A DNA stretch of 20,173 bases from a virus (IMGVR_UViG_3300001450_000447:1-20173), one strand, 5' to 3'; counted from the first letter of the stretch, positions 528-19,395 are shown. The notes: generated by a model from the letters alone, not told the origin. Translations and numbers: made by a program.

Positions 528-1211
528 ATGAGTTTATTTTTAGGTCATCTGCCATGCCCCAAGTGTGGTAGTAAAGATAATTTAGGCGACTATGATGACC
601 ATCAATATTGCTTTGGTTGTGGTTATTATGTAAAGAAAACAGATACTAATAGTCTAAGAACACGTATTAATAGAACTGTAATTCTCAATGAATTGCAGGG
701 CATTACTACGACTACTGATATACCTCAAGAAGCTATGCAATGGTTGTTGAAATACAACATAACTCAAAATGAAATAGACAAGTACAAAATTAAATGGAGT
801 AATACATCTAAAGTACTTGTACTAATTCAAACTAAAGACTATTGGCAAGGTAGAAACTTTGGATTTAGTAGTCAAAAATACAAAAGTAATGGTGTTAAAC
901 CCTTGACAATATATGGAAAGGGTGGTACAATAATTTTAGTAGAAGATGTTTTGTCAGCTATCAAAATAGCTAGAACTAAAGATTATTCTGCATTGCCTTT
1001 GTTAGGTAGTAACCTATCTAAAAAGATAGAGTCTAACCTAGCAGATAGATATTCAAAAATCTATGTGTGGTTAGACAGAGATAAAGCGAGACATGCTGTT
1101 CAAATTAAAAACAGACTAAGAAGTTTAGGGATAACTAGTAAAGCTATCATTACACCACTAGACCCTAAAGAGTATAATGAAACGGAGATTAATACATGGT
1201 TGAAGAATTAA
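528..1211 (+). CDS. DNA primase, T7 gp4 primase-like
   Basis: Synthesises RNA primers at the replication fork. The N-terminus carries a zinc-binding module, CPKC (C10, C13) and CFGC (C28, C31), in the same pattern as the T7 gp4 primase zinc domain. A Toprim-type domain follows: ILVED around E139 should supply the catalytic glutamate and WLDRD (D183, D185) the metal-binding aspartates. A DPKEY segment near the end resembles the equivalent T7 region. At 227 residues the protein is the size of the primase half of gp4 and stops before any helicase motif. The helicase is the next gene, overlapping by 16 bases, so the bifunctional T7 enzyme is two polypeptides here. Primase activity rests on these family motifs. 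Confidence 0.92.
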   Translation: MSLFLGHLPCPKCGSKDNLGDYDDHQYCFGCGYYVKKTDTNSLRTRINRTVILNELQGITTTTDIPQEAMQWLLKYNITQNEIDKYKIKWSNTSKVLVLIQTKDYWQGRNFGFSSQKYKSNGVKPLTIYGKGGTIILVEDVLSAIKIARTKDYSALPLLGSNLSKKIESNLADRYSKIYVWLDRDKARHAVQIKNRLRSLGITSKAIITPLDPKEYNETEINTWLKN

Positions 1212-2434
1212 TATTAAATCTATTTTGTTTAGACAAAAAGTACTGGACAAAATATTATAAGTATGTTAATATAAATTATATTAAAAATAATTATACTAAT
1301 ATATATAAATTATTTTTAGTAGTTGATAGTTATTATAATAAACATGATAAAGATACTATTACTAAACTAGAACTACTAATAGAATACAATACTAATTATT
1401 TATTACAAGATTCTGAAAGACTAGAACTATCAGAGTTACTTGATAGAATCTTAACAGAAGAAATAGAAAATATAGACAGCATTACAAATCTTCTTGAAGA
1501 ACATAGAAGAAGATCCCTTGCTGGTGATATAGCTAAACTTGCTTTAGATGTAGAAGAAGGTAGTGCTGATGTTAAAGAACTTATGGAAAAGTTTTCTAAC
1601 TTTGAACATCAAGAAGTAGAAGTAGACCAGCCTGACCCCGTTAACATGGAACTAGCTGACTTACACAAAGCTCAGATAGGTACACCAGGATTGAGATGGA
1701 GACTGAACTGGCTTAACAAGTCTCTAGGTTCACTACGTAAAGGTGACTTTGGTTTTATCTTTGCTAGACCAGAGACAGGTAAGACTACGTTCTTAGCTTC
1801 AGAGATAACTCATATGGTTCAACATACAGAAGGTGATATCATATGGTTTAACAATGAAGAACAAGGTAAGAAGGTTGCTATTCGTTGTTATCAAGCAGCA
1901 CTAAACTTGACAAGTAAAGAATTATTTGATAGTATAGAAGACAATAGTACCAAGTACAAAGACATGACAGGCAACAGAATAAAAATATATGACTTTGAAG
2001 ATTCATCTAGTACTGGTAGAATAGAACAGATACTAAAAGAATCTAATCCATCATTAATTATCTTTGACCAAATGGATAAGATAAAAGGATTCAAGTCAGA
2101 CAGACATGACTTACAACTAAAACAATTGTATCAATGGGCTAGAGAGTTAGCTAAAACATATGCTCCAGTAATTGCAGTATCACAAGCTGGAGGTACTGCA
2201 GAAAATAAACTGTGGTTAACAATGGATGATGTTGATAGCAGCAAGACTGCGAAGCAAGGTGAAGCTGATTGGATACTTGGTATTGGTAAAGAACAAGACA
2301 ACACCAGCCATATGAGATTCTTAAATATAAGTAAGAACAAATTACTAGGAGACTCAGATTCATTACCAGATTTACGACATGGTAATCAATCTGTAATTAT
2401 TAAACCAGAAACAGCGAGGTATGTAGACCAATGA
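1196..2434 (+). CDS. Replicative DNA helicase, DnaB/T7 gp4-like
   Basis: A ring-forming 5'-3' helicase that should unwind the fork with the primase and polymerase encoded beside it. Residues 1-140 form a Lys/Asn/Tyr-rich then acidic N-terminal region. The RecA-like core follows: Walker A ARPETGKTT at 190-198, an NNEE motif at 219-222, Walker B LIIFD ending at D291, and the VSQAGG motif with Q330. The usual first Gly of Walker A is Ala (A190). ATG 1196 overlaps the end of the primase gene by 16 bases and has GGAG 8 bases upstream. The stop codon overlaps the polymerase start as ATGA. The N-terminal 40 codons are extraordinarily AT-rich. Confidence 0.92.
   Translation: MVEELILNLFCLDKKYWTKYYKYVNINYIKNNYTNIYKLFLVVDSYYNKHDKDTITKLELLIEYNTNYLLQDSERLELSELLDRILTEEIENIDSITNLLEEHRRRSLAGDIAKLALDVEEGSADVKELMEKFSNFEHQEVEVDQPDPVNMELADLHKAQIGTPGLRWRLNWLNKSLGSLRKGDFGFIFARPETGKTTFLASEITHMVQHTEGDIIWFNNEEQGKKVAIRCYQAALNLTSKELFDSIEDNSTKYKDMTGNRIKIYDFEDSSSTGRIEQILKESNPSLIIFDQMDKIKGFKSDRHDLQLKQLYQWARELAKTYAPVIAVSQAGGTAENKLWLTMDDVDSSKTAKQGEADWILGIGKEQDNTSHMRFLNISKNKLLGDSDSLPDLRHGNQSVIIKPETARYVDQ
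1261..1320. other. Extremely AT-rich segment inside the helicase gene
   Basis: Only 4 of these 60 bases are G or C. The stretch encodes an Asn/Tyr/Ile/Lys-rich segment of the helicase N-terminus. Such a region melts easily, so it could act as an unwinding element for replication. It could equally be relaxed coding sequence in an AT-rich genome. No repeated initiator boxes were seen around it. Confidence 0.2.
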
Positions 2435-3588
2435 AATACTTGACACTAGATGTAGAAACAACTATTAGTAATAAAGGTAATGCATTTGACCAGACTAATA
2501 AACTTATGTATGTTGGTTTGTCTGGTAAAAAAGTATATGATATTGAATACTCCGTTGACCCCTACAAGGAATTGCTAGAAGACATTCAAATCGCTGTGAA
2601 TGATGCAGATGTGCTTGTAGGGTTTAACATTAAATTTGACTTGCATTGGTTACAAAGATATGGTATAGTATTCAAAGATAAAAGAATATGGGATTGTCAA
2701 TTAGTACAATTCATACTTGACAATCAAGCTAATCCATATCCTTCTCTTAATAGAGTAGCAGAGTACTATGAACTTGGAACTAAACTAGATGAAGTAAAAG
2801 AAAACTATTGGAAAAACAATATAGATACTGACAAGATTCCAAAGGAAATCTTGGAAGAGTACTTAATACAAGATGTAGAACTTACTGAAAAAATTATGTA
2901 CAAACAAATGAAAGAACTTGACAAACGTCCAGAACTAAAACGTTTGGTGTCATTACATAATCAAGACCTAATGGTTCTACAAGAAATGGAATACAATGGA
3001 CTTAACTTTGAATATGACTGGAGTAATACACTTGGACAAGAACTCGAAGAACAAATTAGTAAGCTTAATAATAGATTACACAATTATCACAAGTACGATG
3101 ATTTTAATCCCAATAGTGTGGATCATCTTAGTGCTTTCCTTTATGGTGGAGCAATTAAATCTAAGCGTCAGATACCTGCTGGAACGTATAAGACAGGTCC
3201 TAAAAAAGACCAGCCTAAATTTAAATGGGAAGATTACACAATTCCAATGGGAAGACGTGTTCCACCTATTGCAGGTACAGAGTTATCTAAAGAAGGTCTG
3301 TACTCAACTGACGAAAAGACTCTCAAAAGTCTTAAAGGAACTAAAGAAGCTCAAGAAATTCTAAACATATTACTTACTAGAGCAACTTTAGAAAAACGAA
3401 TGTCAACATATTATTATGGACTGACAAAACTAACAGACCAGATGAACTGGACTAAAGGAAAAATACATGGACAACTAAATCAATGTGTAGCAAAAACAGG
3501 TAGGTTAAGTAGTAGTAAACCTAACTTACAAAACTTTGATGGAGAAATAAAAACTTTATTCACTAGTAACTTTAAGGAGATAATATGA
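2431..3588 (+). CDS. DNA polymerase A, N-terminal half (3'-5' exonuclease and start of polymerase domain)
   Basis: Proofreading exonuclease plus the first part of the palm/thumb of a family A replicative polymerase. Exo I is LDVETT (D7, E9), Exo II is NIKFD (N66, D70) and Exo III is YLIQD (Y144, D148), so proofreading should be intact. The polymerase motif TGRLSSSKPNLQNF begins near residue 356. The protein ends at residue 385, just where motif A should begin. The rest is encoded by the gene at 3974. Together the halves total 624 residues, about the length of a complete phage polymerase, so almost nothing is missing. The start overlaps the helicase stop as ATGA, and the stop overlaps the next ATG in the same way. 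AAGGAG near the end serves as ribosome binding site for the following ORF. Confidence 0.92.
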   Translation: MKYLTLDVETTISNKGNAFDQTNKLMYVGLSGKKVYDIEYSVDPYKELLEDIQIAVNDADVLVGFNIKFDLHWLQRYGIVFKDKRIWDCQLVQFILDNQANPYPSLNRVAEYYELGTKLDEVKENYWKNNIDTDKIPKEILEEYLIQDVELTEKIMYKQMKELDKRPELKRLVSLHNQDLMVLQEMEYNGLNFEYDWSNTLGQELEEQISKLNNRLHNYHKYDDFNPNSVDHLSAFLYGGAIKSKRQIPAGTYKTGPKKDQPKFKWEDYTIPMGRRVPPIAGTELSKEGLYSTDEKTLKSLKGTKEAQEILNILLTRATLEKRMSTYYYGLTKLTDQMNWTKGKIHGQLNQCVAKTGRLSSSKPNLQNFDGEIKTLFTSNFKEII

Positions 3589-3767
3589 AAAGCAATTTAA
3601 CATATTATATAGTAGGATTTTTAATTATTTTTAGTTTTGCTTTAACAGTATATAATAAATCAGATAGTGCTATATATTCTTGGGATCATCTAATTGCTGA
3701 TGAAGCACCACTACCAGCAATTGATCCAGTACCTTTTATAGATATTCCACATTTACAGGAGAACTAA
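3585..3767 (+). CDS. Small single-pass membrane protein inserted in the polymerase locus
   Basis: A 60-residue protein with one hydrophobic segment at about residues 5-24 (YYIVGFLIIFSFAL), then a short polar linker and an acidic, proline-containing tail ending IPHLQEN. The only nearby N-terminal charge is Lys2. No lipobox Cys is present, so it is not a lipoprotein. AAGGAG lies 8 bases before the ATG and the start overlaps the stop of the polymerase N-terminal gene. It lies between the polymerase halves in the same operon. I do not recognise a family. A membrane anchor or inhibitor role would be speculation. Confidence 0.75.
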   Translation: MKSNLTYYIVGFLIIFSFALTVYNKSDSAIYSWDHLIADEAPLPAIDPVPFIDIPHLQEN

Positions 3768-3977
3768 ATGAAAACTGATTATCTTATTCCAGAAGAAGAT
3801 GAAAAAGATAACTGGGAACAACAAGCTCAAGAAGAAGCACATCAACATTTTGTTTCAGTTGAGTTTAGTCATATGTTAGTTGAAGATGGTGTAGCTTGTA
3901 CTCTTGGTAAACTTAGTAAAGAAGCTCAAAGAGAGATACGAGCAATGATAACATTACACGGAAACAATTTACTATGA
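3768..3977 (+). CDS. Small acidic protein inserted in the polymerase locus
   Basis: A 69-residue protein without membrane segment or cysteine pair (one Cys). The first 30 residues are strongly acidic (IPEEDEKDNWEQQAQEEA) and probably helical. The end, LSKEAQREIRAMITLHG, also looks helical. The start follows the preceding TAA directly and has AGGAG upstream. The stop overlaps the start of the polymerase C-terminal gene as ATGA, so translation of the polymerase half probably depends on ribosomes finishing this ORF. I do not recognise a family. Confidence 0.75.
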   Translation: MKTDYLIPEEDEKDNWEQQAQEEAHQHFVSVEFSHMLVEDGVACTLGKLSKEAQREIRAMITLHGNNLL

Positions 3978-4693
3978 TACTTAATGCAGATGCAAAACAA
4001 TTAGAATGGGTAGGTGCTACTTACTTATCTCAAGATAGTACAGCTATCAAAGAGATACTAAATGAAGTAGATCAACATTCTGATAATCAAAAAAGATTTA
4101 GATTACCAGATAGACTTACAGCTAAGACTTTTGTATTTAGATTAATCTATGGTGGGAGTGCGTACTCATACGCAAACGACCACAACTTTAAAGATATAGG
4201 TAATGAATCTTTTTGGCAAAATGTAATTGATGAATTTTATATAAAGTACAATGGATTAAAAAAGTGGCATGATGAAATATTCTTTCGTGCAAAACGAGAT
4301 CAATATTTGGTTATGCCTACAGGACGAAGATATGATTACAAGCCTGAAATAAATAGTCAAGGTAATCTAAAGTATCCTCGAACACGAATACTAAATTATC
4401 CTGTTCAAGGTTTAGGTGCTGACTTAATGACAATTGCTAGAGTATCATTAAGAAACAGACTTAAAAACAAACCGGGTGTTAAATTAATTAATACAGTACA
4501 TGATTCAATAATGCTTGACTTTGATGAAAAAGTATGGGATAATAATAGTATAGTTAAAGTAGTAGACAAATGTTTTAATGACGTACCTGAAAACTTTGAA
4601 AAGTTATTCGGAAAAAAGTTCAACCTTCCCATGAGAGTTGAATGTCAAATTGGACCATCATGGGGTAACTTGGAGATTATAAATGCAAATTAA
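3974..4693 (+). CDS. DNA polymerase A, C-terminal half (palm and fingers with catalytic motifs)
   Basis: Carries the nucleotidyl-transfer site of the split polymerase. Motif A is LNADAKQLEW, with D6 as the first catalytic Asp. Motif B is RLTAKTFVFRLIYGG, where R47, K51, F55 and Y59 match R754, K758, F762 and Y766 of E. coli Pol I. Motif C is VHDSIML with D177, and Ser replaces the usual Glu of HDE. The protein begins only three residues before motif A, so it cannot fold as an independent polymerase and must pair with the product of 2431-3588. There is no good ribosome binding site before ATG 3974. Translational coupling through the ATGA overlap is likely. Confidence 0.92.
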   Translation: MILNADAKQLEWVGATYLSQDSTAIKEILNEVDQHSDNQKRFRLPDRLTAKTFVFRLIYGGSAYSYANDHNFKDIGNESFWQNVIDEFYIKYNGLKKWHDEIFFRAKRDQYLVMPTGRRYDYKPEINSQGNLKYPRTRILNYPVQGLGADLMTIARVSLRNRLKNKPGVKLINTVHDSIMLDFDEKVWDNNSIVKVVDKCFNDVPENFEKLFGKKFNLPMRVECQIGPSWGNLEIINAN

Positions 4694-5210
4694 TGTAATT
4701 GATGTAGGTAGTTTAAATACACATTCTGCAAAGAATGGTAGGCAGTATCAATCTATTGAAATAACTTACAAGAATGAACAAGGTCAAGCTCAATCAAAGA
4801 AGCTAATGTCGTTCAGTGCACCAGATGTTTTTAAAGCAGCTCAGTCTTGGACTAAAGGAGACAGCGTTAATGTAGCTACTAAGAAAGATGATAATGGTTA
4901 CTGGCAATGGACAAAGATACTTGCTGATGGTGAACTAGATACCCAGGCAACGTCAGGCAGTTCAGTCAAACCTGCTAACACAACAAGGGTTACAGGTAGT
5001 AATTATGAAACTAAGGATGAAAGAGCCGCTAGGCAAGTAATGATTGTACGTCAGTCGTCTCTTTCTAATGCAGTAGCTACCTTTGCAGTTGATGGTAGTA
5101 AAGCTACAGCTAATGACGTAATCAGTCTAGCAAAGCTGTATGAAGGTTATGTACTAGGAACTGTAGGAACGACATCTATTGATGACTTCACAGACGATGT
5201 ACTAATCTAA
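4683..5210 (+). CDS. Single-stranded DNA-binding protein-like
   Basis: A 175-residue protein whose N-terminal half looks like a beta-rich OB-type domain (alternating hydrophobic strands, SKKLMSFSAPDVFKAA, GYWQWTKI). A Ser/Thr/Asn linker and a conserved-looking helical segment, ERAARQVMIVRQSSLSNAV, follow. The end, IDDFTDDVLI, resembles the acidic tails of SSB proteins such as E. coli SSB and T7 gp2.5, which bind other replisome parts. GGAG lies 8 bases before ATG 4683, which overlaps the polymerase gene by 11 bases. Its place between polymerase and exonuclease fits. The assignment rests on the tail, the size and the context, not on a clear family motif. Confidence 0.68.
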   Translation: MQINVIDVGSLNTHSAKNGRQYQSIEITYKNEQGQAQSKKLMSFSAPDVFKAAQSWTKGDSVNVATKKDDNGYWQWTKILADGELDTQATSGSSVKPANTTRVTGSNYETKDERAARQVMIVRQSSLSNAVATFAVDGSKATANDVISLAKLYEGYVLGTVGTTSIDDFTDDVLI

Positions 5211-7647: not shown

Positions 7648-7830
7648 TTGCTTACTTTTGAAGAAATACTAAACGAGCTTAAAAGAGTCGAAGAAACTAC
7701 TCTTATTGAAATGCTAAATGTCACATCAGACGAAATTGTTGAACATTTTAGAGATAAAATAGAGGAAAATATTGATTATTTTAAAGATTTTGCAAACGAA
7801 AATATAGAGGAAATGCACGATTATGAGTAA
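7648..7830 (+). CDS. Small acidic helical protein, TTG start
   Basis: A 60-residue acidic, mostly helical protein (TFEEILNELKRVEETTLIEMLN, then DEIVEHFRDKIEENI), with no Cys and no membrane segment. No ATG is available near the front, so the start appears to be TTG at 7648 with GGAAAGG about 11 bases upstream. Similar short TFEEI-like proteins occur next to nucleotide-metabolism genes in phages as far as I recall. The end overlaps the reductase start by 8 bases. The function is unknown; tight coupling to the reductase gene hints at co-expression only. Confidence 0.68.
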   Translation: MLTFEEILNELKRVEETTLIEMLNVTSDEIVEHFRDKIEENIDYFKDFANENIEEMHDYE

Positions 7831-9691
7831 CTTACCCTCCGTCTATCAAGACGTTATAGGATTATCAAGATACGCAAGGTATCTACCAAAAGAAAATAGA
7901 AGAGAAAATTGGACAGAAACAGTAGATAGATTAATATCTTATATTAAAACAAAAGTCCCCAATCTTAAAGAACATAAAGAAATTAGAGAAGCTGTATTAA
8001 ATTTAGATGTAATGCCATCTATGAGACTTCTTATGTCAGCAGGAGAGGCTTGTGAAAGAGACAATATTGCAGCTTACAATTGTTCTTACCTCGCTATTAA
8101 TAATAAACGAGCTTTTTCAGAGGCTTTATATATATTAATGAACGGTACAGGAGTAGGATTTAGTTGTGAAAGACAAGAAATTAATAAATTACCAGTTATA
8201 CCAGAAGATATTAATAAATGTGACGATACTATCGTTGTTGGTGACAGCAAGCTCGGCTGGGCAAAGGCATTTAAGAAACTCTTATCATCCCTATGGGAAG
8301 GTGATATACCTACAGTGGACTACTCCCAGGTCAGACCAGCTGGAGCTAGGCTCAAAACCTTTGGTGGTAGAGCCAGTGGACCGGAACCTCTTAAACGATT
8401 GTTTGATTTTGTTATAGAATCTTTTAATCATGCTAAAGGACGTAAATTAAATTCCTTAGAAGTCCATGATATCATATGTATGGTAGGTGAAATAGTGGTT
8501 GTAGGAGGAGTCAGAAGATCTGCTCTTATTTCGTTATCAAATCTAACTGACAAAAGAATGAGAGAAGCTAAAATGGGTGCCTGGTACAATGATTTTGCAT
8601 ACCGTGGATTAGCTAATAACTCAGTTGCTTATACAGAAAAACCTGATATGGAAACATTCATGGATGAATGGGTATCCTTAGTTAAATCTAAGTCAGGAGA
8701 ACGTGGTATATTCAACAGAGTTGCTGCACAAAAACAAGCAGCTAAACAAGGTAGAGTTAAAGATCTAAACTACGGTACAAATCCATGTAGTGAGATTATA
8801 TTACGTGACAAACAGTTTTGTAACTTAACAGAAGTAGTTGTAAGACAAGGTGATACAGAAGCTACACTCACTAAGAAAGTTAAAATTGCTACAATACTAG
8901 GTACAATTCAATCTACATTATCAAACTTTAAATTCTTATCTCATGAATGGAAAGATAATACAATGGAAGAAAGATTATTAGGTGTTTCATTAACAGGTAT
9001 TATGGATGCTAAAATAACATCTAATCCAGATCCAAAATTATTAGAAAGGTTACGAGATCATGCAAGAAAAACAAATCATAAGTACGCAGACTTACTTGAC
9101 ATCCCACGATCAAAAAGTATTACGTGTGTTAAACCTTCTGGGACTGTCTCTCAGCTTGTTGACAGTTCTAGCGGCATACATGCTCGTCATAACGACTATT
9201 ACATAAGAACTATCCGTATGGATAAAAAAGATCCTATCTATGAATTCTTAAAAGATAGAGGGGTGCAAGTAGAAGATGAACAGTATAGACCTGACTCAAC
9301 TGCAGTGTTTAGCTTTCCTATGAAAGCACCCAAAGGAGCAGTTACTAGAAACGATATGACAGCTATTGAACAAATGGAAAACTGGTTAGTATATCAAAGA
9401 CATTGGTGTGAGCATAAACCTTCTGTTACTATTTCTGTTAAAGATAATGAATGGATGGAAGTAGGTGCTTGGGTATGGAAACATTTTGATGAAATCTCAG
9501 GTATATCTTTCTTACCTCATAGTGATCATACTTATGTACAAGCTCCTTATCAAGATGCTACAAAAGAAGAATATGAAGCATTATATAAGAAAACCCCTAA
9601 GTCTATAGATTGGAGTCAATTTGTAGAAATAGATGATAATACAGTAGGTGCTCAAACATTAGCATGTACTGGAGGAAACTGTGAAATATGA
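7823..9691 (+). CDS. nrdJ: Class II (adenosylcobalamin-dependent) ribonucleotide reductase
   Basis: Converts ribonucleotides to deoxyribonucleotides for phage DNA synthesis. The thiyl/redox cysteines of the monomeric Lactobacillus leichmannii enzyme (C119, C408, E410, C419, C731, C736) correspond to C87 (YNCSYL), C322 and E324 (NPCSEI), C333 (FCNLTE), C615 and C620 (ACTGGNCEI). The spacings 322-333 and 615-620 match. GGVRRSA and VKPSGTVSQLV are further family signatures. No radical-generating small subunit gene or glycyl-radical motif is present, which supports class II. At 622 residues it is shorter than the 739-residue L. leichmannii protein. GAGGA lies about 11 bases before ATG 7823. It sits downstream of the second promoter. 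Confidence 0.93.
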   Translation: MSNLPSVYQDVIGLSRYARYLPKENRRENWTETVDRLISYIKTKVPNLKEHKEIREAVLNLDVMPSMRLLMSAGEACERDNIAAYNCSYLAINNKRAFSEALYILMNGTGVGFSCERQEINKLPVIPEDINKCDDTIVVGDSKLGWAKAFKKLLSSLWEGDIPTVDYSQVRPAGARLKTFGGRASGPEPLKRLFDFVIESFNHAKGRKLNSLEVHDIICMVGEIVVVGGVRRSALISLSNLTDKRMREAKMGAWYNDFAYRGLANNSVAYTEKPDMETFMDEWVSLVKSKSGERGIFNRVAAQKQAAKQGRVKDLNYGTNPCSEIILRDKQFCNLTEVVVRQGDTEATLTKKVKIATILGTIQSTLSNFKFLSHEWKDNTMEERLLGVSLTGIMDAKITSNPDPKLLERLRDHARKTNHKYADLLDIPRSKSITCVKPSGTVSQLVDSSSGIHARHNDYYIRTIRMDKKDPIYEFLKDRGVQVEDEQYRPDSTAVFSFPMKAPKGAVTRNDMTAIEQMENWLVYQRHWCEHKPSVTISVKDNEWMEVGAWVWKHFDEISGISFLPHSDHTYVQAPYQDATKEEYEALYKKTPKSIDWSQFVEIDDNTVGAQTLACTGGNCEI

Positions 9692-18167: not shown

Positions 18168-18407
18168 TTATGTACGATACTTTCTTACTTTTTTAGCTAC
18201 TTTTCTAGGTTGTGCCACATGTTGTTTACCTTTTTTATTGCCTTTTCTTTTAGCAGCATTAGTTGCTTTTCTTTCTGCAGGACTTAATGCATTCCATGCA
18301 GCATCAGGCAAATATCTTTTTTTACCTTTACTAGGTTTACCATCAGAAGTTCTCCACTTTTGTTTTGACCACTTAGATAAACTTTTCTGTGATTTAGCTT
18401 TAGCCAC
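18168..18407 (-). CDS. Small basic protein (SKWSKQKWRT type), GTG start
   Basis: A 79-residue, Lys/Arg-rich protein. It contains SLSKWSKQKWRTSDGKPSK, then RYLPDAAWNALSPAERKATNAA and a basic tail with KKGKQHVAQPRKVAKK. Short proteins with this KWxxQKWRT and YLP..A..ALSPAE pattern are widespread in phages and usually listed as a domain of unknown function. I prefer GTG 18407, about 9 bases after an AGGTGG run. A GTG at 18419 would add four residues. It overlaps the preceding gene by 8 bases. Nucleic-acid or virion association is plausible from the charge but unproven. Confidence 0.75.
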   Translation of the reverse strand: MAKAKSQKSLSKWSKQKWRTSDGKPSKGKKRYLPDAAWNALSPAERKATNAAKRKGNKKGKQHVAQPRKVAKKVRKYRT

Positions 18408-18582
18408 GATAACCACCACCTTTAGATTTATATTGCTTAGCTAATAGTTGTGCTTTACGTGCTGACCACTGTCCAGGCTTCCCTCCTTTACTCCCTGCTT
18501 TAATCCTATTAAAAAGATTTTTACGCATTGTAGGTTTAGTGTAATTACCTGCTTTATTTACTGTACTTTTCTTTTTTACCAT
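18400..18582 (-). CDS. Small basic protein (KPGQWSARKAQLL type)
   Basis: A 60-residue basic protein ending KPGQWSARKAQLLAKQYKSKGGGYRG. The QWSARKAQ segment recurs in short uncharacterised phage proteins. The first half is Lys/Asn/Gly-rich and probably unstructured. The ATG lies in the end of the previous gene (7-base overlap) without a good ribosome binding site, so translation is likely coupled. The 3' end encodes a Gly-Gly-Gly run whose bases also form the ribosome binding region of the next gene. Confidence 0.75.
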   Translation of the reverse strand: MVKKKSTVNKAGNYTKPTMRKNLFNRIKAGSKGGKPGQWSARKAQLLAKQYKSKGGGYRG

Positions 18583-18860
18583 TTTACTTTATCTGCCCAG
18601 TATGCAGCTGACATTTTACCTTTAGATATATTTCTACCATGTCTAGCTTTAAATGATTTACGCTTTGCTTTCATTCTTGCAGATTCTCCTGCTTTAGGTT
18701 TACCTGCAGTAGACGCACCTTGTTCTCCAAATCGTATAGTTTTAACTTTATCACCTTCTTTAGCTACAACTACATGTGATTTTTTAGGATGAGAAGGAGT
18801 ACGTTTAGGTTTATTAAACCCTGATACTCCTGCTCTTGCTAATCTAGAATCTTTAGCCAT
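18576..18860 (-). CDS. Small basic protein (RFGEQG, KMSAAYWA type)
   Basis: A 94-residue, strongly basic protein. A Lys/Ser/Pro-rich start is followed by a short beta-like part (SHVVVAKEGDKVKTIRFGEQG). A helical end with ARMKAKRKSFKARHGRNISKGKMSAAYWADKVKW follows in sequence. The KxxSFKARH and KMSAAYWA pattern recurs in uncharacterised phage proteins. There is no Cys and no membrane part. The ATG overlaps the previous TAA as TAATG. Function unknown; DNA or RNA binding is an inference from charge. Confidence 0.76.
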   Translation of the reverse strand: MAKDSRLARAGVSGFNKPKRTPSHPKKSHVVVAKEGDKVKTIRFGEQGASTAGKPKAGESARMKAKRKSFKARHGRNISKGKMSAAYWADKVKW

Positions 18861-18997
18861 TATTTCTTTTTCTTTTTAGGTTTCATATGAGTATATCCTT
18901 TTTCTTTTAAATCTAAATGTTTTTTCTTTGTAAATACCATTTGTCCTTTACCAGCTTTAGAATACATCATATGAGGTTTCATTTTATCTTTATCCAT
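18860..18997 (-). CDS. 45-residue Lys/Met-rich protein
   Basis: A 45-residue protein beginning MDKDKMKPHMMYSKAGKG and ending in five lysines; 16 of 45 residues are Lys. ATG 18997 has AAAGGA 8 bases upstream, a near-ideal ribosome binding site. The stop overlaps the next gene's start as TAATG, which supports a real gene despite the low complexity. No family function is known to me. It lies third from the top in a run of six basic small proteins. Confidence 0.68.
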   Translation of the reverse strand: MDKDKMKPHMMYSKAGKGQMVFTKKKHLDLKEKGYTHMKPKKKKK

Positions 18998-18998
18998 T

Positions 18999-19124
18999 TT
19001 AATATCCTTTACTTATTCTCATTGTCATTGTTTTCTTTTTTTTCTTCTTTTTCTTTTTAGCTTTTTCTGCTGCCATTTTACCTTTTGCTGTATAAGCGTA
19101 CTTTTTTCCATTTACCATAGGCAT
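18999..19124 (-). CDS. 41-residue poly-Lys protein
   Basis: A 41-residue protein starting MPMVNGKKYAYTAKGKMAA, then nine consecutive lysines and a short tail TMTMRISKGY; 15 of 41 residues are Lys. AAGGA lies about 9 bases before ATG 19124. Short proteins with the MPMVNGKKY start occur in other marine phages as far as I recall, all uncharacterised. The lysine run uses mixed AAA and AAG codons, so it is not a simple mononucleotide slippage product. One base separates it from the following ORF. Confidence 0.66.
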   Translation of the reverse strand: MPMVNGKKYAYTAKGKMAAEKAKKKKKKKKKTMTMRISKGY

Positions 19125-19125
19125 A

Positions 19126-19395
19126 TTAAGTTTTCCTTTTAGTTAAGTTACGTTTCTTCTTTTTTGCTTCTTTACTTAAATTCTTTTTAGCAGATACTTT
19201 TTTTAAGTTACTTTTCCTGTTATCCATTGCATTATCATTCTTATGTGCTGCGTGTCGTTTATCTCCTTTTTTAAGACCAAGTTTAGTTCGTGCAGCATTA
19301 CGAGAAGCTCTTTCTTTAACTCTTTTAGGTTTCTTTTTCTTTTCCCAATTAAGTTCTTTTTTATAGTCTCGTTTTCCTTTACTCATATAAGGCAT
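19126..19395 (-). CDS. Small basic HNH-like protein
   Basis: An 89-residue, very basic protein. The segment HAAHKNDNAMDNRKSNLKKVS (residues 48-68, His at 48 and 51, Asn at 55, 59 and 63) follows the HKNGxxxDNRxxNL pattern of HNH nucleases. The first His usually sits after an acidic or Val residue, but here two Ala precede H51. The N-terminus, KGKRDYKKEL, and the ASRNAARTKLG helix match short phage HNH-like proteins. It could nick DNA or be a degenerate DNA-binding relative. ATG 19395 follows GGAG by 11 bases and overlaps the upstream TAA. A start at 19386 lacks a binding site. Confidence 0.68.
   Translation of the reverse strand: MPYMSKGKRDYKKELNWEKKKKPKRVKERASRNAARTKLGLKKGDKRHAAHKNDNAMDNRKSNLKKVSAKKNLSKEAKKKKRNLTKRKT

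Follow-up and report, generated by a model that had tools for sequence, protein, structure and literature searches.

The locus described here raises the question of how a DNA polymerase gene comes to be divided just before its first catalytic motif, and whether the two parts still make one enzyme. The window, by which we mean the whole stretch of viral DNA analysed (20,173 nucleotides, IMGVR_UViG_3300001450_000447:1-20173), carries its family A DNA polymerase as two separate ORFs, 2431-3588 and 3974-4693, which flank two small ORFs. The features of the region are as follows.

1196..2434, plus strand: DnaB-type helicase, directly upstream of the polymerase and overlapping the start of its N-half (ATGA)
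2431..3588, plus strand: N-half of the polymerase (3'-5' exonuclease with its motifs, thumb, N-terminal palm), 385 aa
3496..3537, plus strand: TGRLSSSKPNLQNF motif, N-half residues 356-369, the last strongly conserved block of the N-half, aligning with Bst/Klenow
3585..3767, plus strand: insert ORF 1, 60 aa, start overlapping the N-half stop (ATGA)
3768..3977, plus strand: insert ORF 2, 69 aa, start directly after the stop of insert ORF 1, stop overlapping the C-half start (ATGA)
3974..4693, plus strand: C-half of the polymerase (motifs A, B and C, palm, fingers), 239 aa
3986..4009, plus strand: motif A, ADAKQLEW, with D6 and E11 invariant, aligning with Taq DYSQIE
4112..4150, plus strand: motif B (O helix), RLTAKTFVFRLIY, with R47, K51, F55 and Y59 invariant
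4499..4507, plus strand: motif C, HDS, with H176, D177 and S178 invariant
4683..5210, plus strand: conserved 175-aa protein, directly downstream and overlapping the C-half end

Both ORFs have the positions and lengths that a preliminary description had given them (385 + 239 = 624 residues), and since the same split is found in isolates and in other samples, the division into two genes is real. The N-half ends in TGRLSSSKPNLQNFDGEIKTLFTSNFKEII followed by a stop codon, and the C-half begins with MILNADAKQLEW. The Pfam DNA_pol_A model matches the N-half over profile positions 54-132 (E=4e-21) and the C-half over positions 154-380 (E=3.5e-26), while the Pfam 3'-5' exonuclease family matches the N-half; with exonuclease and polymerase domains (PF00476 with PF01612) and motifs A, B and C, this is a family A DNA polymerase. 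The exonuclease residues of the N-half (D7xE9, D70 and Y144xxxD148, that is D7, E9, D70, Y144 and D148) and the polymerase residues of the C-half (D6, the catalytic Asp of motif A, with E11, R47, K51, F55, Y59, H176 and D177) are invariant among 39 diverse members. The claim that all catalytic residues are kept therefore stands, with one nuance: motif C of the window has Ser after the Asp (HDS), where E. coli Pol I has Glu. The same Ser occurs in the unsplit polymerases of HMO-2011 and HTVC033P and in the split polymerase of ICP2. HMO-2011-type polymerases (HMO-2011, HTVC033P, CRP-738), which share the HDS form of motif C, are the nearest fused polymerases to the C-half; they are single chains of about 680-720 aa, and that of HMO-2011 has an annotated DnaJ-type zinc domain.

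The two small ORFs have no Pfam or PHROG match. Insert ORF 1 has a hydrophobic N-terminus that looks like one membrane helix, and its family is present, among the surveyed loci, only in the window and in two contigs from other samples (L007 and L008). Insert ORF 2 occupies the same place as MEP401 gp14, with 46% identity. Neither has an endonuclease match, so the window lacks the endonuclease gene at the break that marks genes split by a homing endonuclease; only some relatives carry one there. The 175-aa protein downstream has no Pfam, PHROG or NCBIfam match. Start and stop codons are interlocked along this stretch, as ATGA at 2431 (helicase/N-half), ATGA at 3585 (N-half/60-aa ORF), TAAATG at 3768 and ATGA at 3974 (69-aa ORF/C-half), and the four junctions from helicase to C-half therefore look translationally coupled. 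Across the relatives, the C-half start codon is ATG in 147 of 150 cases, a 4-nt SD match precedes it in 59% (16% at internal ATGs), and it overlaps or abuts a stop codon in 68 of 108 distinct starts.

The record of the window is linear, 20 kb long and possibly a fragment, which would leave room for an assembly artefact, or for a decaying polymerase that another enzyme has replaced. However, the same layout recurs across many samples and isolates. One contig (L006) is identical to the first 8172 bases of the window, and so possibly the same data; L007 and L008, from other samples, are 97-98% identical to the window with the same layout, and isolates MEP401 and MEP402 show the same split. In sufficiently diverged pairs, each half mostly has a dN/dS of 0.04-0.18, and such strong purifying selection on each speaks both against decay and for the earlier suggestion that both are functional. 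No other family A polymerase was found in 16 whole records of relatives, and no family B polymerase in 8. With both halves intact and under selection, and no intact copy elsewhere in the records searched, the locus has the genetic make-up expected of an enzyme in pieces, and the probability of artefact or decay is practically negligible.

We then consider what caused the split. The survey of relatives comprised IMG/VR scans together with the MEP401/402, Manatee Spring and QDWS535 records, and gave 210 loci with both halves, 161 of them distinct by protein. The polymerase is split at the same place in all of them. Among the distinct loci, 150 have an intact separate C-half, 11 were flagged as odd (three of these for no other reason than a late start of the match), and there is no fused one. 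Seven loci that had been flagged as unsplit turned out to be ORFs overlapping by 17 nt in different frames. Fused relatives inside the split clade were absent from the IMG/VR scans, and a scan of genome contigs gave only matches of 24-31% identity; scans with the Alcaligenes phage or ICP2 C-half alone found no relatives. On the tree, the split clade is monophyletic (support 100) with respect to fused and ICP2 polymerases.

The space between the halves is far less constant. They overlap by 1, 4, 7 or 17 nt in 28 loci and are separated by 0-48 nt in 14 (thus 42 distinct loci with gaps of -17 to +48 nt), by 61-150 nt in 21, by 151-330 nt in 71, by 331-1000 nt in 15 and by 3598 nt in one. The 135 ORFs found in these gaps fall into 35 families, among them HNH-type genes, endonuclease VII-like genes and a cytosine methyltransferase. 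Even between the window and L007, whose polymerase halves are 97-98% identical in DNA, the gap is only 82% identical and has many indels. The split point is shared by two genomes from Manatee Spring, in which inserts of 3.6 kb (MW202796) and 0.2 kb (MW202697) separate the halves. Many relatives, including the isolate Alcaligenes phage QDWS535, have the split without any insert (as a TAATG overlap, a 17-nt overlap or a stop codon followed by ATG), and a tree of 27 members implies at least 7 gains or losses of an insert. Insert-free splits, varied gap ORFs and repeated change of the insert together indicate that the split is older than its cargo. The preliminary description had attributed the split to a two-gene insertion; this does not hold, and, judged from these comparisons, the two ORFs of the window did not cause it.

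Where the cut falls is seen from alignment with fused polymerases, which read SRFDGGKVMEADFAQLEF (HMO-2011) or SRFEGGSIVQSDFTSLEV (StenM_174) across the junction region; split polymerases have there SRY and a stop, then MLLQADAKQLEW. From the conserved SRY/SRF to the end of the N-half there are 0-20 residues, and in the C-half five residues precede the catalytic Asp. Only a short Gly-rich turn before motif A is missing in comparison with the fused homologues, and a new Met takes its place, so that the 624 residues have indeed lost almost nothing. The break had been called unusual for lying between motifs that must pack together. It does lie within palm sequence, but exactly on the Gly-rich turn, and such a turn is a benign place to cut. 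We modelled with AF2 a relative whose halves are in frame across one stop (L125), reading the stop as Gln. The model has the stop position at residue 384 and the first residue of the motif A strand directly behind it, at 385, and the alignment to Bst and apicoplast polymerases extends over the full chain (probability 1.0, TM 0.6-0.7); with a pTM of 0.43, the model places the cut, while the interface is not confidently predicted. The C-half of the window alone is modelled with a pLDDT of 94 and matches the palm and fingers of Pol theta and Pol I.

In local alignments, the N-half of the window scores better with T7-like/ICP2 polymerases and the C-half with HMO-2011-type polymerases. A chimera formed by recombination at the split was considered, but is not supported: in spite of the crossover of local scores, separate trees of N- and C-halves give the same four-group topology.

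Could the halves nevertheless be joined into one chain during expression? The authors who described MEP401 and MEP402 reported a split polymerase, also in most related metagenomic genomes, suspected an intron and left the question open (PMC10580990). Splicing would remove such an intron from one interrupted polymerase gene, and a single polypeptide would result. Group I introns that contain endonuclease-like ORFs do exist in this polymerase family, in the C-half of L100 (L100:4827-5544) and in the N-half of L120 (L120:6002-6706). However, they lie at other sites, with the split still present. The intron of L100 is inside the C-half, between LFR and TIFRG, and the split upstream is intact; that of L120 follows LSSSRP in the N-half, whose own stop comes further on (after QNFASELQDIFISQYDQ) and is succeeded by two ORFs and then the C-half. 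While these two served as positive controls, no Rfam intron was found in the window up to E=5, nor in six related loci, and the window's gene is not interrupted by a group I intron at the junction. Furthermore, an intron would find no room in the 42 distinct loci where the halves overlap or have no more than 48 nt between them, and the gap ORFs belong to 35 families rather than one. We consider an intron extremely improbable. Joining after translation by a split intein has precedents among DNA polymerases, those of phages included, one being PolB of phage MIJ3 (PMC6892783). Here there are no extra residues at the junction end of either half and no room for intein domains, neither half carries intein sequence, and we give this explanation next to no credence.

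Ribosomal frameshifting or stop readthrough might join the two parts into one polymerase, if only in members without inserts: in L098, L125 and L189 just one stop codon separates halves that share a frame, and in L140 the halves overlap in different frames. But all three relative frames occur among the closely spaced members, so no recoding scheme is shared; members with hundreds of bases of insert, the window included, cannot use recoding; and the C-half is equipped with an SD-like site and an ATG of its own. Recoding is thus very unlikely.

Since all loci are split, closely spaced halves leave no room for introns, both halves are under selection and no second polymerase was found in the relatives searched, the comparisons point to two cistrons, two chains and one enzyme. 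Very probably, then, this clade has a fixed two-subunit family A DNA polymerase, encoded by neighbouring cistrons, with halves that would assemble in trans and a junction that collects cargo and HNH genes. In this scenario an ancestral single gene would have been cut, most simply once in the ancestor of the clade, at the Gly-rich turn leading into the motif A strand, and the downstream part would have gained its own ATG, so that the halves came to be made as neighbouring cistrons. In the window they would be linked via the ATGA, TAAATG and ATGA junctions across two extra small cistrons. The chain with exonuclease, thumb and N-terminal palm and the chain with motifs A, B and C, palm and fingers may fold together non-covalently into a Pol I-like enzyme. 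Small genes and HNH endonucleases would be gained and lost repeatedly at the junction because it is now intergenic inside an essential gene cluster, and the two ORFs of the window would be one such filling.

Physical assembly and activity of such a two-chain polymerase would have precedents. The split replicative polymerase gp43A/gp43B of the T4-type Aeromonas phages 25 and 44RR co-purifies as two chains and is active, and activity is likewise known for the split NrdA of Aeh1 (PMC2988022); gp43A/gp43B is of family B and so not homologous to the family A enzyme of the window. The closest isolates, the OM43 phages MEP401 and MEP402, have the same split point just before motif A, the same gene order and a small ORF between the halves, which are 65% and 71-72% identical to those of the window, and the window's polymerase belongs to this MEP401-type; they have one insert ORF where the window has two, and their authors suspected an intron, not two subunits (PMC10580990). 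The split phenomenon was thus already known from these phages (PMC10580990), and its fixed, insert-independent and intron-free nature is new here. Alcaligenes phage vB_Af_QDWS535 shares the split point and replication neighbourhood with the window, but has no insert, its halves overlapping by 1 nt and being 45% and 36% identical to those of the window.

A second group of split family A polymerases is the ICP2-type of Vibrio phage ICP2 and its relatives (Icepovirus, VP41s3), in which two ORFs are separated by a short gap, sometimes with an HNH or other ORF between them. Its cut lies about 15 residues earlier than that of the window, and ICP2 falls with fused T7-like polymerases on the tree (support 99). 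A tree constrained to unite the two split groups is disfavoured (AU p=0.022), although with each half alone it is not rejected (p 0.20 and 0.13). The split of the ICP2-type (L086, L090 and VP41s3, L091) is thus likely independent of that in the window's clade, as far as these trees tell. In ICP2 itself (L086) HNH gene 51 lies at the split and the polymerase is annotated as a joined gene. This GenBank join looks doubtful because in the relative ICP2_2013_A_Haiti (L090) the same two ORFs lie 9 nt apart, the sequence reading LQNISN and a stop, 9 nt, then MSDIKRC.

Endonucleases might still have had a part in the origin of the split, if a homing endonuclease insertion first made it and was later replaced by other cargo. 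The junction is occupied by HNH-type genes in L117, L149 and L191 and, in L233, by an endonuclease VII-like gene; the ICP2 split also contains an HNH gene, and Aeh1 nrdA/mobE is a known precedent (PMC2988022). However, an endonuclease is lacking in the majority of members, and forms without an insert are scattered across the clade, so that the endonucleases may have arrived late, when the junction was already open. We regard such an origin as possible but somewhat doubtful.

An observation that counts against the two-subunit explanation is a set of indels in motif A, at C-half codons 8-12, in seven distinct loci (L004 +1, L099 +6, L117 -1, L120 +10, L130 -1, L191 +2, L193 +2) and in L235 (-1). 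They would kill the C-half unless specially decoded. In MW202697 the C-half (L004:4985-5753) is annotated with a late start, apparently owing to one extra A in motif A. The C-halves show no frame break other than these indels and the intron of L100. Downstream of the indel, C-half omega is 0.11-0.13 at dS 0.5-0.8 among L117, L130 and L235, indicating purifying selection. Five of the eight loci have an HNH-type gene (L117, L191, L235) or its remnant (L130, L193) just upstream, and the combination recalls the mobA/gene 60 arrangement of T4. Gene 60 is read by translational bypass. The splitting of a T4 gene by mobA has been described (PMC2988022). By analogy, the junction could be a homing-endonuclease battleground, where an HNH gene between the halves targets motif A in competitors, while alleles with a small indel, its frame restored in translation, are resistant. 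No unusually stable RNA structure was found downstream in the indel group (z about 0), and we consider this reading unlikely; if true, the window would represent a member of this family that was left undisturbed.

The two-subunit reading turns a polymerase that is interrupted, perhaps by an intron, into a testable claim. If it is true, a widespread marine and freshwater phage clade would replicate with a natural two-chain family A polymerase, and the junction would offer a natural, evolution-tested split site for the study and engineering of two-part Pol I enzymes. It would also show how an essential gene tolerates a cut at a turn and afterwards accommodates cargo that changes. Surveys that use PolA as a marker gene and look for it in one piece will probably overlook or mis-annotate these phages.

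Elsewhere in the window, positions 7823-9691 encode a B12-dependent ribonucleotide reductase (622 aa), which scores 325 bits, just under the NCBIfam cut-off of 340, and the minus strand of 18168-19395 carries a run of six short predicted proteins that are very rich in Lys and Arg.
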